Source: Actinokineospora spheciospongiae
GTDB taxonomy: Bacteria > Actinomycetota > Actinomycetes > Mycobacteriales > Pseudonocardiaceae
NCBI RefSeq assembly: GCF_000564855.1
Contig: NZ_AYXG01000081.1
Span: 1-64,000, forward strand
Length of the DNA: 64,000 nt
Reading direction: 5' to 3'
Each line of letters begins with the position of its first letter. Positions within the stretch are counted from its first letter, which is position 1. Below, in pieces: positions 36,548 to 39,824 of the stretch. The notes below the pieces were generated by a model, which did no database searches, was not told the origin of the DNA, and saw nothing but the letters and a program-made list of their open reading frames with translations. Both the position numbers and the translations under genes were made by a program.

Positions 36548-37272
36548 CCGACAACCCGACACCCCCCTTCCTGCCCGCCGTGGTCGACCGGGCCACCTGG
36601 ACCGCCGAACGGGAGGCGTTGCTCGTCCGGGAGAAGGCGCACACCCGCGCGGGCGACGAGATCGCGGCGGCCCGCCGCAGGCTGCCGATGGTGGAGGTGG
36701 ACGCGGGCGCCCCGCTGGTCGGCCCGTCCGGCCCGGTCACGCTGCTGGACGCCTTCGAGGGCCGCGACCAGCTCATCGCCTACTTCCACATGTGGCACAC
36801 CGGCCACCCCGCCGCCGAGCAGTGCGCGGGCTGCACGTTCTGCGCCAGCCAGGTCCGCGAACTGTCCTACCTGCACTCCCGTGGCGCCACCTACGCCATC
36901 CTCTGCCAGGGCCCGTACGAGCAGAGCGCCCGCTACCGCGACTTCATGGGCTACGACGTGCCCTGGTACTCCGCCCAGGAGTCCGCCGAGACCCTGCTCG
37001 CCGGGCGCGGCCCCTTCCTGCTCGCCTTCTACGTGCGCCACGGGGACCGGGTGTTCGAGACCTACGCGACCAACGGCCGTGGTGTCGAGGCGATGACCCC
37101 GACCTACTCGCTGCTGGACATGACCGCCTTCGGCAGGCAGGAGGAGTGGGAGGACATGCCGGAGGACCGGTCGCAGGGGTGGACGCCCGACGGCGGGCAG
37201 ATCGTTGACGGCCGCCCGACCGCCCAGTGGGCCCGGCTGCGCGGGGGCCACTCCGACGACCTGGGCACCTGA
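36544..37272 (+). CDS. DUF899 family thioredoxin-like protein
   Basis: A 242-residue protein of the DUF899 family. It has the opening EREALLVREKAHTRAGDEIAAARRRLPMV and the Cys cluster CAGCTFCAS, in which a CxxC-like pair sits at a thioredoxin-fold active-site position. Function is not established; a redox role is inferred. It starts at GTG in a 4-base overlap with the ArsR gene, completing a three-gene operon. A hairpin follows 18 nt after the stop. Confidence 0.82.
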   Translation: MTDNPTPPFLPAVVDRATWTAEREALLVREKAHTRAGDEIAAARRRLPMVEVDAGAPLVGPSGPVTLLDAFEGRDQLIAYFHMWHTGHPAAEQCAGCTFCASQVRELSYLHSRGATYAILCQGPYEQSARYRDFMGYDVPWYSAQESAETLLAGRGPFLLAFYVRHGDRVFETYATNGRGVEAMTPTYSLLDMTAFGRQEEWEDMPEDRSQGWTPDGGQIVDGRPTAQWARLRGGHSDDLGT

Positions 37273-37290
37273 CCGGAAAACCGGCTGTGA

Positions 37291-37321
37291 GCGGCACGAC
37301 CGGGTGTTACGGTCGTGCCGC
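37291..37321 (+). terminator. Hairpin just upstream of the tRNA pair
   Basis: A perfect 12-bp stem (37291-37302 with 37310-37321) with a seven-base loop ends 2 nt before the 5' end of the first tRNA. It can terminate the DUF899 operon. A possible -10 TACGGT (37308-37313) with a weak -35 CTGTGA (37285-37290), 17 bp apart, lies within it, so it could also hold the tRNA promoter. Confidence 0.6.
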
Positions 37322-37323
37322 CA

Positions 37324-37395
37324 CGTGGAGTGGATCAGCGGTGGATCACCCGGCTGTTATCCGGGAGGGCGCGGGTTCGAATCCCGCCTCCACGG
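37324..37395 (+). tRNA. Atypical tRNA with GTT (Asn) anticodon and initiator-like features
   Basis: A 72-nt cloverleaf read by hand. It has a 7-bp acceptor (CGTGGAG/CTCCACG), D arm GATC-AGCGGTG-GATC, anticodon stem CCCGG/CCGGG with loop CTGTTAT, variable loop AGGGC, T arm GCGGG-TTCGAAT-CCCGC and discriminator G. The GTT anticodon and G73 fit asparagine. C1, T8-G9 and the A11:T24 pair are hallmarks of bacterial initiator tRNA, and position 21 is G instead of A. CCA is not encoded. It is unlike a normal actinobacterial tRNA-Asn and may be a specialised tRNA. Confidence 0.7.
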
Positions 37396-37399
37396 CAAA

Positions 37400-37471
37400 C
37401 CTGGTGTAGCTCAACGGCAGAGCACCTGGCTCGAGACCAGGTGGGTGCGAGTTCGACCCTCGCCACCAGGT
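37400..37471 (+). tRNA. Atypical class I tRNA with CGA anticodon
   Basis: A 72-nt cloverleaf 4 nt after the first tRNA: acceptor CCTGGTG/CACCAGG, D arm GCTC-AACGGCA-GAGC, anticodon stem CCTGG/CCAGG with loop CTCGAGA, variable loop TGGGT, T arm GCGAG-TTCGACC-CTCGC and discriminator T. The anticodon CGA would read the serine codon UCG. Serine tRNAs, however, have a long variable arm, and this one has only five bases. The D arm and U73 resemble tRNA-Gly instead. CCA is not encoded. It is either a mistranslating/specialised tRNA or a tRNA-like non-decoding RNA. Confidence 0.65.
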
Positions 37472-37496
37472 CCCCCTTCTCATCCTGGAGTCCACA

Positions 37497-39824
37497 GTGT
37501 CCGACGACCCGCGCCAGTCCGCCTCACCCGCGTACGCGACCGACCGGTTGCAGCGCGCCCTGCTGGGCGCGGCGCGGTCCGAGGACCCGGCGGTGCGGGC
37601 CAGGGCGGCGGGGAAGGTCCGCCGCTGGGAGCGGGTGCTGGCGGGCACGGCGGCGGGCCGGATCACCGTGGGCTCGCGCGTCCCGGTGGCGGGCGCGCCC
37701 GCCTGGGTCACCCTGGAGGTCGTCACCGGCGGTTTCGCCACCGGCCGCCACCTTGCCGATGCCCCGCTGTCCGAAGAGGAGTCCCGGCGGGTGGCCGCGC
37801 TGCCCGCCGACGTCCCCGGCGACACCGACCGCGCCCGCCTGAACCACTGGTACCTGGGCGACGCCGGTCAGGCCGAGCTGCTGGCGGCGCTGCGCACGGG
37901 CCACTACCGGGTCGACATCCCGGAGGAGGCGGCGCTGGTGGTCGTGGCCCTGCTGCTGGACAAGGGCTTCACCGAGGCGGCGCTGGACCTGCTCGACGAG
38001 CTGCGCCCGTTCCTCGACCGGCTGCGGTTCACCCCCCACTTCCAGCCCACGGCCGCGCTGTCCGGCACCGCCGTGCGCCTGGCCACGGTCGCCGACGTCA
38101 CCCGCTCCCTGGACGCCGTCGTCGTGCCGGCGCAGGTGGCCCTGATGAACCGCACGCTGGGCGTGTGGAACCCGCTCTACGACCGCCTCGTGGCGCTGTG
38201 GTGCCGAACCGTCGACGGCGACCTGCCGACCCTCGACGACGAGGGCGCGCTCCACGGCGGTCGCCCCGGCACCCGCCTGCCCCCGGACTGGGCGGCGGAG
38301 CGGGCCGCGTGGCTCGCCGACTTCGAGCGCGCCCGCGCCGAGCACGGGTTCACCGGCAAGCACGCCCACCGCAAGGGCAACTTCACCCGGCTGCACCACG
38401 CCCTCACCGCCTGCCCGGCGGACTTCACCGCCCTCACCGCGCGGGACCTGGGCTGGGTCCGCCGCGCCCTGGCGGGCACGCTCACCCACCACGGCGCCCC
38501 CGGTTCCGCCGAGCGCGCCGCCGTCCGCGCGGACCAGGCCGAGACCGCCCGCACCCCGACCACTGCCGCGTTCGCCCGCGTCCTCACCCACCGCCTGCGC
38601 CACTACCCGGCCGACGGCGGTATCCCGGCGCTGGAGCCCATCGCGGCCGAGGTGTCCGAGGCGGACACCGAGGGCATCCCGCCGGGTTCAGCCATGCCGC
38701 CGCAGTTGGTGCGCAAGACCGCCCGCGCGCTGGAGGCACCACCGGAGGAACTGGTGGCCCAGGGCGTGATCACCTCCGCCGACGTGCTGGCCACCGTGCT
38801 CCCCCAGTTGACCTCCCGCCTGACCGCCGCGAACTTCGCCGACCCGGTGGCGGCGGGCCTGCACGAGCGGCTGTACACCGCGTTCCGCCGCAGGCGCGGC
38901 CTGCTCCTGCTCAACCTGGAGCAGCAGGTCCACTTCGAGGAACTGCCCTGGGTGTCCGCACTGGCGGTGCTGCGGGGGTCGGGCACCGACACGGTGGCGG
39001 CCCGGCGCGCGCTGGAGCAGGCCACCAAGCTGACCCTGACCGCGTTCCCGCACGCCATCACGCCGAACCCGCTGGTCACCGAACTGCGGGCACTGGCGGC
39101 GCAGGCGGGCCTCAAGCCACCCCTGGTGCAGGAGGTGGCGGCGGACATCTTCACCGGCACGTTCACCCCGCAGTGGCACGCGGCGGCGCTCGTGGCGAGC
39201 GAGTTCACGGCGGGCACCCTCTACGCGTCCTACTACGACCTGCCGCCTGTCACCCGGTGGAGTGAACCGACCCGGAGCCGCTTCACCCTGCGCTGGGGCA
39301 AGAAGGTCGCCGAGGATTTCACCCACCTGTGCGAGCAGCGGGCGCGGGAGGCGGGCCGCAGCAGCTACCCGTCCGGCAACGGCACCCTGCTGGAGCAGAG
39401 CCAGATCCTCACCACGCACAACCTGGCCGCCCTGGTCCACGCGTTGGACCTGGGCGACTGGCTGCGCGAGCAGGCGCCGGACCTGGCGGCACGCGCGTTC
39501 GGCGGCGCCGTGCGGCTGCTCGCCCAGCGCCCGGCCCACCACCACGCGGAGCTGATCCAGGTGAAGAACGCCGCCTACGCGTGGCGCCAGGCGATCTTCT
39601 TCCTGGGCTTCTGCGACCCCATCACCCAGCGCTCCCAGGTCACCGCCCTGCACGGCGAGGTCGCCGAAGCGGGCATCGGCGACCGCTTCGCGCCAGTCCT
39701 GGAGGGCTTGGTGCATGTCCTGGGCGGTGGTCGGTTCACCGAGGCGGGCACCACGCCGTCCGGCACCGGCCGCCGGTTCCTCGGCTGGGCCGCGTACCGC
39801 CACTGGTACATCGCCGGGCGCTGA
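37497..39824 (+). CDS. Conserved-looking 775-residue protein of unknown function, linked to tRNA pair
   Basis: I cannot name this family with confidence. The protein has 775 residues, no signal peptide and no membrane segment. It is rich in Arg/His/Trp and helical repeats. Likely conserved blocks are KVRRWERVLAGTAAGRITVGSRVPV and AWVTLEVVTGGFATG near the N-terminus, NRTLGVWNPLYDRLVALWC (about 220), AFRRRRGLLLLNLEQQVHFEELPW (about 465), AADIFTGTFTPQWHAA (about 550) and LLEQSQILTTHNLAALV plus LIQVKNAAYAWRQAIFFLGFCDP towards the end. The GTG start follows GGAG by six bases. It lies only 25 nt after the second tRNA, so it must be cotranscribed with the pair. RNA binding or tRNA modification is a plausible but unproven role. 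Confidence 0.75.
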   Translation: MSDDPRQSASPAYATDRLQRALLGAARSEDPAVRARAAGKVRRWERVLAGTAAGRITVGSRVPVAGAPAWVTLEVVTGGFATGRHLADAPLSEEESRRVAALPADVPGDTDRARLNHWYLGDAGQAELLAALRTGHYRVDIPEEAALVVVALLLDKGFTEAALDLLDELRPFLDRLRFTPHFQPTAALSGTAVRLATVADVTRSLDAVVVPAQVALMNRTLGVWNPLYDRLVALWCRTVDGDLPTLDDEGALHGGRPGTRLPPDWAAERAAWLADFERARAEHGFTGKHAHRKGNFTRLHHALTACPADFTALTARDLGWVRRALAGTLTHHGAPGSAERAAVRADQAETARTPTTAAFARVLTHRLRHYPADGGIPALEPIAAEVSEADTEGIPPGSAMPPQLVRKTARALEAPPEELVAQGVITSADVLATVLPQLTSRLTAANFADPVAAGLHERLYTAFRRRRGLLLLNLEQQVHFEELPWVSALAVLRGSGTDTVAARRALEQATKLTLTAFPHAITPNPLVTELRALAAQAGLKPPLVQEVAADIFTGTFTPQWHAAALVASEFTAGTLYASYYDLPPVTRWSEPTRSRFTLRWGKKVAEDFTHLCEQRAREAGRSSYPSGNGTLLEQSQILTTHNLAALVHALDLGDWLREQAPDLAARAFGGAVRLLAQRPAHHHAELIQVKNAAYAWRQAIFFLGFCDPITQRSQVTALHGEVAEAGIGDRFAPVLEGLVHVLGGGRFTEAGTTPSGTGRRFLGWAAYRHWYIAGR

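Follow-up and report, generated by a model that had tools for sequence, protein, structure and literature searches.

In type III toxin-antitoxin systems such as ToxIN, a small RNA made of repeats or pseudoknots lies directly upstream of the gene for a protein, which is a small nuclease toxin. Bacterial genomes also hold tRNA-like genes known as allo-tRNAs, with anticodons for 35 of the 64 codons and acceptor branches of 8/4 or 9/3; these are taken as serine isoacceptors by their identity features, and some are suspected to be parts of transposons or toxin-antitoxin systems (PMC7609411; this and the next 2 sources are cited from excerpts). Phages and host anticodon nucleases have been argued to contend over the sequence of the anticodon loop, and loop changes in phage tRNAs have been ascribed to the anticodon nucleases PrrC, colicins, and VapC (PMC10264068). 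Mycobacterial tRNA array units carry 26-27 tRNA genes for 19-20 amino acids (PMC12803027). Here, we analyze a locus of Actinokineospora spheciospongiae in which 2 tRNA-like elements directly precede the gene for a 775-residue protein. It lies in a 64,000-nt stretch of DNA, positions 1 to 64,000 of contig NZ_AYXG01000081.1 (hereafter, the window), and belongs to a family of loci in which a slowly changing tRNA body bears a hypervariable anticodon loop. We found no earlier description of this element-protein family in the literature, as covered by open PMC papers.

A preliminary description, made from the sequence alone, had claimed 2 cloverleaves of 72 nt, 4 nt apart, and both are real. ARAGORN reads them as tRNA-Asn(GTT) at 37324-37396 and tRNA-Ser(CGA) at 37399-37474, and Rfam RF00005 matches them with 66.2 bits at 37324-37395 and 65.0 bits at 37400-37471, the gathering score being 29. 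Each has a 7/5 acceptor-T branch, a canonical T-loop, and a 7-nt anticodon loop, and the claims that both begin with a C1:G72 pair, that neither encodes CCA, and that the protein frame starts 25 nt after the second element were confirmed. The second element has U73 and a CGA anticodon as described, and its variable loop is 5 nt, a mismatch in isotype between body and anticodon since the long arm of serine tRNAs is absent. The T8-G9, A11:T24, and GTT anticodon reported for the first element are all present, but A11:T24 fails as a mark of initiator identity because it is common in elements of the same type (type A; the second element is of type B) that carry other anticodons.

Neither element had been thought to be a housekeeping tRNA, and the rest of the genome agrees with this. 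Its 7.5 Mb in 262 contigs hold 49 RF00005 matches, and its other tRNAs, with 42 anticodons in total, include a separate Asn-GTT and Ser-CGA, so decoding does not depend on the window pair. Under a covariance model of the element family, in whose training set both are included, the first element scores 91.7 bits and the second 87.3, compared with 66.0 bits for the highest-scoring tRNA elsewhere in the genome. Housekeeping tRNAs are ruled out by these scores, by class and loop features of the family, and by the redundancy of the anticodons.

Homologs of the protein were found in 8 of 61 relatives, in 67 of 390 genomes from the same family, in 26 of 394 from a sample of the class, and in 4 of 396 from a sample of the phylum, counts that include the own genome, fragments, and weak matches. 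In another class, 1 of 66 genomes was positive, and that one was already known. Further homologs were found in Saccharopolyspora spinosa and Kibdelosporangium aridum, and 6 of 72,556 plasmid records (Streptomyces, Embleya, and Curtobacterium) contain one. A search with the window protein found none in 50,697 phage records, and among 17 pattern matches in IMG/VR there were no relatives by tblastn. One of the matches in relatives, in G057, is a stretch of just 64 residues (L038) with 52% identity to residues 294-357, which by eye runs in frame into a long open reading frame (ORF) resembling a thioredoxin-domain protein and is perhaps a relic.

Wherever the frame is long in the loci examined, elements precede it. 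In the family set, which covers loci from 66 of the 67 positive genomes with G235 (E 3.7e-4) as the exception, a cloverleaf scan that required all 5 pairs of the anticodon stem, 6 of 7 in the acceptor, 4 of 5 in the T stem, and U33 found elements upstream of the start in all 63 loci with a frame of at least 600 codons; 3 duplicates (L044, L065, and L105) were dropped from this set, and the frame of L090 is lost near its end. The class and phylum sets gave 22 of 23 long-frame loci by scan, and the locus missed, L130, does have an element, with 1 stem mismatch. The total, window included, is thus 86 of 86 loci, with 1 to 3 elements directly before the start. Elements at the loci mostly score 17-18.5 in the scan, and of 400 control windows, similar in length and taken from the same neighborhoods, 5 gave a match, all scoring up to 16.4. 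Among the 63 loci, 1 element was seen at 26, 2 at 36, and 3 at 1, the single-element count being too high because the stem demand of the scan missed the second element of L066. At most loci the elements end approximately 10-60 nt ahead of the start codon, and those of L108 start up to 343 nt upstream. Three tandem elements were noticed upstream at L108 and L134.

The preliminary description had proposed a dedicated RNA-protein system and had named as refuting it either homologs without linked tRNAs or proof that both elements are the only isoacceptors of their kind. The proposal is well supported because neither turned up: long-frame homologs are all linked, and both anticodons are present elsewhere in the genome. 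The idea that the same 2 tRNAs would always be found upstream did not survive, as the anticodons vary from locus to locus.

Broken loci show the elements in various states of retention. Of 9 broken or fragmentary loci in the family set, 5 keep elements and none was seen at the other 4, although among these G250 has a covariance-model match beside protein fragments and L095, element-less by scan, retains a piece that by eye is apparently the 5′ half of one. Among the loci of the second set, the disrupted locus of G854 (L124 and L141) retains an element, and L137-L140 and L142, with inner or end fragments of the protein only, have none.

In an alignment of 36 element sequences, 12 of 21 stem pairs show two-sided changes, including 4 of the 7 pairs of the 7-bp acceptor and 4 of the 5 pairs of the 5-bp T stem, and the covariation score is 0.311 versus 0.104 in shuffles. 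Pairing accounts for 99.2% of the alignment cells versus at most 51.5% in slid controls, a figure reached partly by construction since the scan demands most pairs; the Rfam and ARAGORN matches are independent of the scan. All 97 distinct elements have C1:G72, and their T-loops define 2 classes: class I, with TTCGA, comprises 86 elements, and class II, with GGC for TTC and without T54-T55, comprises 11. One further element, at L135, has TGC at this place. U73 is found in 81 of the 86 class I elements, followed by CCA in 13, and class II elements mostly have G73. A scan without the U33 demand found C32 and U33 in all 103 elements of 63 loci. A covariance-model search of 362 family genomes gave 57 with a match at E 1e-15, of which 52 are protein-positive. 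One of the 5 remaining genomes, G252, has a match of 87.3 bits that is possibly a relic; the other 4 are near the threshold (74.6-76.3 bits). The 15 of 67 protein-positive genomes missing from the 57 comprise 3 with class II elements, 4 with fragments, weak matches, or broken loci, and 8 others, which may be unsampled or lost to stricter filters.

The variation of the family is concentrated in the anticodon loop. Class I entropies at positions 34-38 are 1.45, 1.73, 1.66, 1.41, and 1.07 bits, with many stem positions below 0.3; outside the loop, variation is highest at T-loop position 59 and in the covarying stem pairs 2:71 and 6:67. On a tree of the 63 proteins (quick maximum-likelihood, some long branches), there are at least 47 changes in the loop of the last element and at least 41 in its anticodon. 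The T-loop class changed once on this tree and is therefore inherited with the protein. Across 156 close pairs, which are not independent and include duplicates, changes per site were most frequent in loops (0.292), followed by fourfold sites (0.199) and bodies (0.027). Disjoint closest pairs gave 12/80 loop and 25/1024 body changes for type A (16 pairs, fourfold mean 0.144), and 19/40 loop and 11/517 body changes for type B (11 pairs, fourfold 0.163), with the type B loop figure taken from 8 pairs because the loop length had changed in the other 3. The type B loop thus changes about 3 times as fast as fourfold sites, as judged from these 8 pairs without a significance test. In the pair L067/L068, none of 65 type B body positions and all 5 loop positions changed between loci whose proteins are 87% identical, and identical bodies with different loops and anticodons are observed among the distinct elements.

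The loop remains like that of a tRNA as it changes. The G36-G37 rule, kept by 42 of 42 host tRNAs, is kept by 36 of 38 distinct 7-nt loops (shuffle mean 21.5, with 0 of 20,000 shuffles as high), and these loops present 22 anticodons. Within a locus, no loop is repeated in 31 two-element loci, repeated sequences having been removed. At L075 and L132, elements upstream of the protein have the stop-codon-reading anticodons TTA and CTA. Loop length is 7 nt in 98 of 112 elements, 6 nt in 13, and 5 nt in 1, and serine and leucine anticodons occur on bodies without a long arm. Because the 5- and 6-nt loops, the missing serine arm, and the non-tRNA T-loop of the class II clade speak against ordinary decoding or charging, the tRNA-dependent biosynthesis suggested in the preliminary description is less likely.

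Since the T-loop class is inherited with the protein and the anticodon loop varies even where proteins are similar, it is most likely the body of the element that the protein reads, and the loop would face a third party. That similar proteins accompany bodies that are almost the same but bear different loops likewise suggests that the loop is not what the protein reads. A loop that keeps U33 and the rule at positions 36-37 and yet diversifies would have the appearance expected of bait for loop-specific enemies.

The protein, approximately 680-860 aa in most loci, was rightly called unrecognized. That of the window has no match in Pfam, NCBIfam, or PADLOC at E 1 and none among PDB sequences, alone or as a profile, and comparison of its predicted fold with the PDB, including HEAT/ARM-like helical repeats, gave mainly short helical matches, which do not show the fold to be new. 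In the prediction, residues 54-64, 79-85, 467-476, and 548-551 are conserved and of low confidence. Weak Pfam matches to bpX3, of the MoxR-vWA-bpX ternary systems, appear in 6 of 53 homologs (best E 0.021) and not in the window protein, and we regard this hint as too weak. The features of the locus are collected in Table 1.

Table 1. Features of the tRNA-like element locus, in positions of the window.
Feature	Position	Strand	Remarks
Type A tRNA-like element (first)	37324..37395	+	Loop CUGUUAU, anticodon GTT, G73; found by ARAGORN, Rfam, and the family scan
Type B tRNA-like element (second)	37400..37471	+	Loop CUCGAGA, anticodon CGA, U73, without long variable arm
Partner protein ORF, 775 aa, GTG start	37497..39824	+	No known family; predicted to be nearly all-helical
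Likely -10 box TACGGT of putative common transcript	37308..37313	+	16 nt before the first element
12-bp hairpin	37291..37321 (arms 37291-37302 and 37310-37321)	+	Not general in the family

At 66 of 71 loci, duplicates included, the first element is preceded by a TANNNT box at a distance of 12-45 nt, most often 16, versus 15.6% of shuffles, and this box together with the short gaps fits a single transcript that would carry both the elements and the mRNA. The 12-bp hairpin that had been described 2 nt before the first element is present, but as a general feature of the family it was rejected: hairpins reach a shuffle p of 0.05 or less at 7 of 63 loci, window included, where approximately 3 are expected. 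Because it overlaps the likely -10 box in the window, it may be an operator or may terminate transcription of the DUF899 gene that lies upstream. By eye, an A-rich stretch like GGAAAATCGG recurs tens of nt before the -10 box at many loci (approximately 37270-37290 in the window) and is possibly an operator. Also by eye, CRISPR-like direct repeats of the CCCCGCACACGCGGGGGTGGTCCCG type at L032:1100-1245 stop shortly before the first tRNA-like element.

In 42 neighborhoods of 10-14 kb, with home-made gene calls and with L042 and L148 seemingly the same locus, the protein alone recurs in all and the next cluster in 6, so the unit stands alone. It is patchy, occurring in several actinobacterial families and on plasmids as well, without a conserved neighbor. 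A gene for RlaP, an RNA-repair-associated nucleotidyltransferase, lies upstream on the same strand at 8 of 9 loci of genus g331 (L176-L180 and L200-L202, at a distance of approximately 0.7-3.2 kb; L199 has none). RlaP is present in 29 of 31 genomes of this genus, and given this near-universal presence, the apparent link to RNA repair is probably old synteny.

The explanation that we prefer, tentatively and with somewhat less than even confidence, is a conflict system of two parts, tRNA mimics that would serve as decoy or tripwire bait and a helical protein that would hold them by the body. One transcript would yield 1 to 3 mimics and the protein, which would recognize the slowly changing elbow and acceptor and leave the anticodon loop exposed. 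The loop would imitate those of real tRNAs, hence U33 and the G36-G37 rule, and would be met by an anticodon nuclease (probably) or another loop-binding agent from an invader or competitor. Cut or occupied bait would either soak up the attacker or release or activate the protein, whose action would halt growth or remove the threat. As antagonists switch their target tRNAs, the loops would diversify under selection with body and protein conserved, and 2 different baits at a locus would widen the range. The stronger version, that this is a new kind of immune system whose guard protein holds a slow tRNA body and displays a fast-evolving loop that reports tRNA-cutting attackers, seems to us slightly less probable again.

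Several observations weigh against bait. Neither a defense family nor a known effector domain was found in the protein by Pfam, PADLOC, or fold comparison. PADLOC assigned neighbor proteins (140 searched) to 9 families with 1-2 members each, raw counts without a background set that provide no controlled evidence for a defense island. The type A loop does not change faster than fourfold sites, and the type B excess, besides coming from 8 pairs, may be inflated by a G+C bias that holds fourfold divergence down. The body is slow but not fixed: in the last element, its 5′ acceptor strand shows 16 states and at least 20 changes on the tree. As to mimicry, positions 37-38 agree with those of the host tRNA that bears the same anticodon in 9 of 32 cases (shuffle mean 6.3, with 515 of 5000 as high), so exact copying of host loops including 37-38 is not significant, and 6 of 38 distinct loops have anticodons not found in their own genome (TCG, CAG, TTA, and TAT), which makes them hard to view as mimics of own tRNAs.

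The elements could instead be the tRNA-like RNA antitoxin of a toxin-antitoxin pair, pseudo-substrates of a protein toxin that acts on tRNA or translation, with a loop that drifts or follows a change of targets. An RNA upstream of the protein gene, probably on the same transcript, is as in RNA-antitoxin systems; the unit is patchy, stand-alone, and plasmid-borne, and at 5 of 9 broken or fragmentary loci the elements outlive the protein. However, approximately 680-860 aa without a nuclease family match is not what such a toxin would suggest, a toxin that recognizes the loop should change with it, when in fact large loop changes accompany similar proteins, and the type B loop outpaces fourfold sites; on balance, we think this explanation unlikely. 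The last of these points also tells against a cis-regulatory leader, in which tRNA folds would mature or regulate the mRNA through RNase P/Z cleavage or autoregulation by a tRNA-binding protein and the loop would be unconstrained. Such a leader would agree with the position of most elements, which lie close to the start codon (approximately 10-60 nt) and have a -10-like box shortly before the first of them, and with a type A loop rate close to that of fourfold sites, but C32, U33, and the G36-G37 rule are unexpected in a free loop, and up to 3 elements per locus and the distant elements of L108 also speak against a leader. We regard it as distinctly improbable.

Those same conserved loop positions are what decoding needs, and with the many anticodons (22 among the 38 loops) they would suit a codon-specific translation silencer, by which the protein would bring an uncharged, codon-matched mimic to the ribosome and stall chosen codons, in stress signaling or against foreign mRNA. 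We also know of no housekeeping isotype that fits C1:G72 with U73. The 5- or 6-nt loops of 14 of 112 elements and the class II elements without T54-T55 are difficult for a silencer, and it leaves the rapid change of codon unexplained, so that we rate it only a little above the leader and below the toxin-antitoxin pair. That the elements are ordinary supplementary decoding tRNAs on a mobile gene is very hard to credit: they do score as tRNAs with ARAGORN and Rfam and have a tRNA-like anticodon loop, but both window anticodons are redundant, serine and leucine anticodons sit on bodies without a long arm, identical bodies carry different anticodons, and there are short loops and a class II T-loop foreign to tRNAs.

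If the bait explanation is correct, bacteria would sense attack on translation with tRNA mimics, and the loops would record which tRNAs were attacked. If it is not, the family would still point to tRNA being used together with a dedicated protein for something other than decoding. To our knowledge, hypervariability concentrated in the anticodon loop of a slow tRNA body, beside one protein at all the long-frame loci examined, is undescribed in open PMC papers. Like ToxIN, the family has its RNA elements directly upstream of a protein gene, but these are full cloverleaves with, in the window, a 775-aa helical protein rather than a repeat or pseudoknot RNA with a small nuclease, and a ToxN-like nuclease was not detected in the window protein by Pfam, NCBIfam, or PADLOC at E 1. 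Judging from the excerpts cited above, the elements resemble allo-tRNAs in placing diverse anticodons on one body and differ in their 7/5 branch (8/4 or 9/3 in allo-tRNAs), their C1:G72 pair, and their tie to one protein family (PMC7609411). With phage tRNAs (PMC10264068) and array units (PMC12803027), again as far as the excerpts go, they share being tRNA genes thought to be involved in a contest over tRNA cleavage or in defense and an occurrence in phages or on plasmids. Phage and array sets are larger and serve many amino acids, unlike the 1-3 mimics and one protein found here, and unlike phage tRNAs the present loci come mostly from genome assemblies, with none in phage records. As in the PrrC, colicin D and E5, and VapC systems covered by the same excerpt (PMC10264068), the anticodon loop would be the contested site, but those systems are attackers, whereas the present unit, in which no nuclease family was found, would be the bait or sensor.

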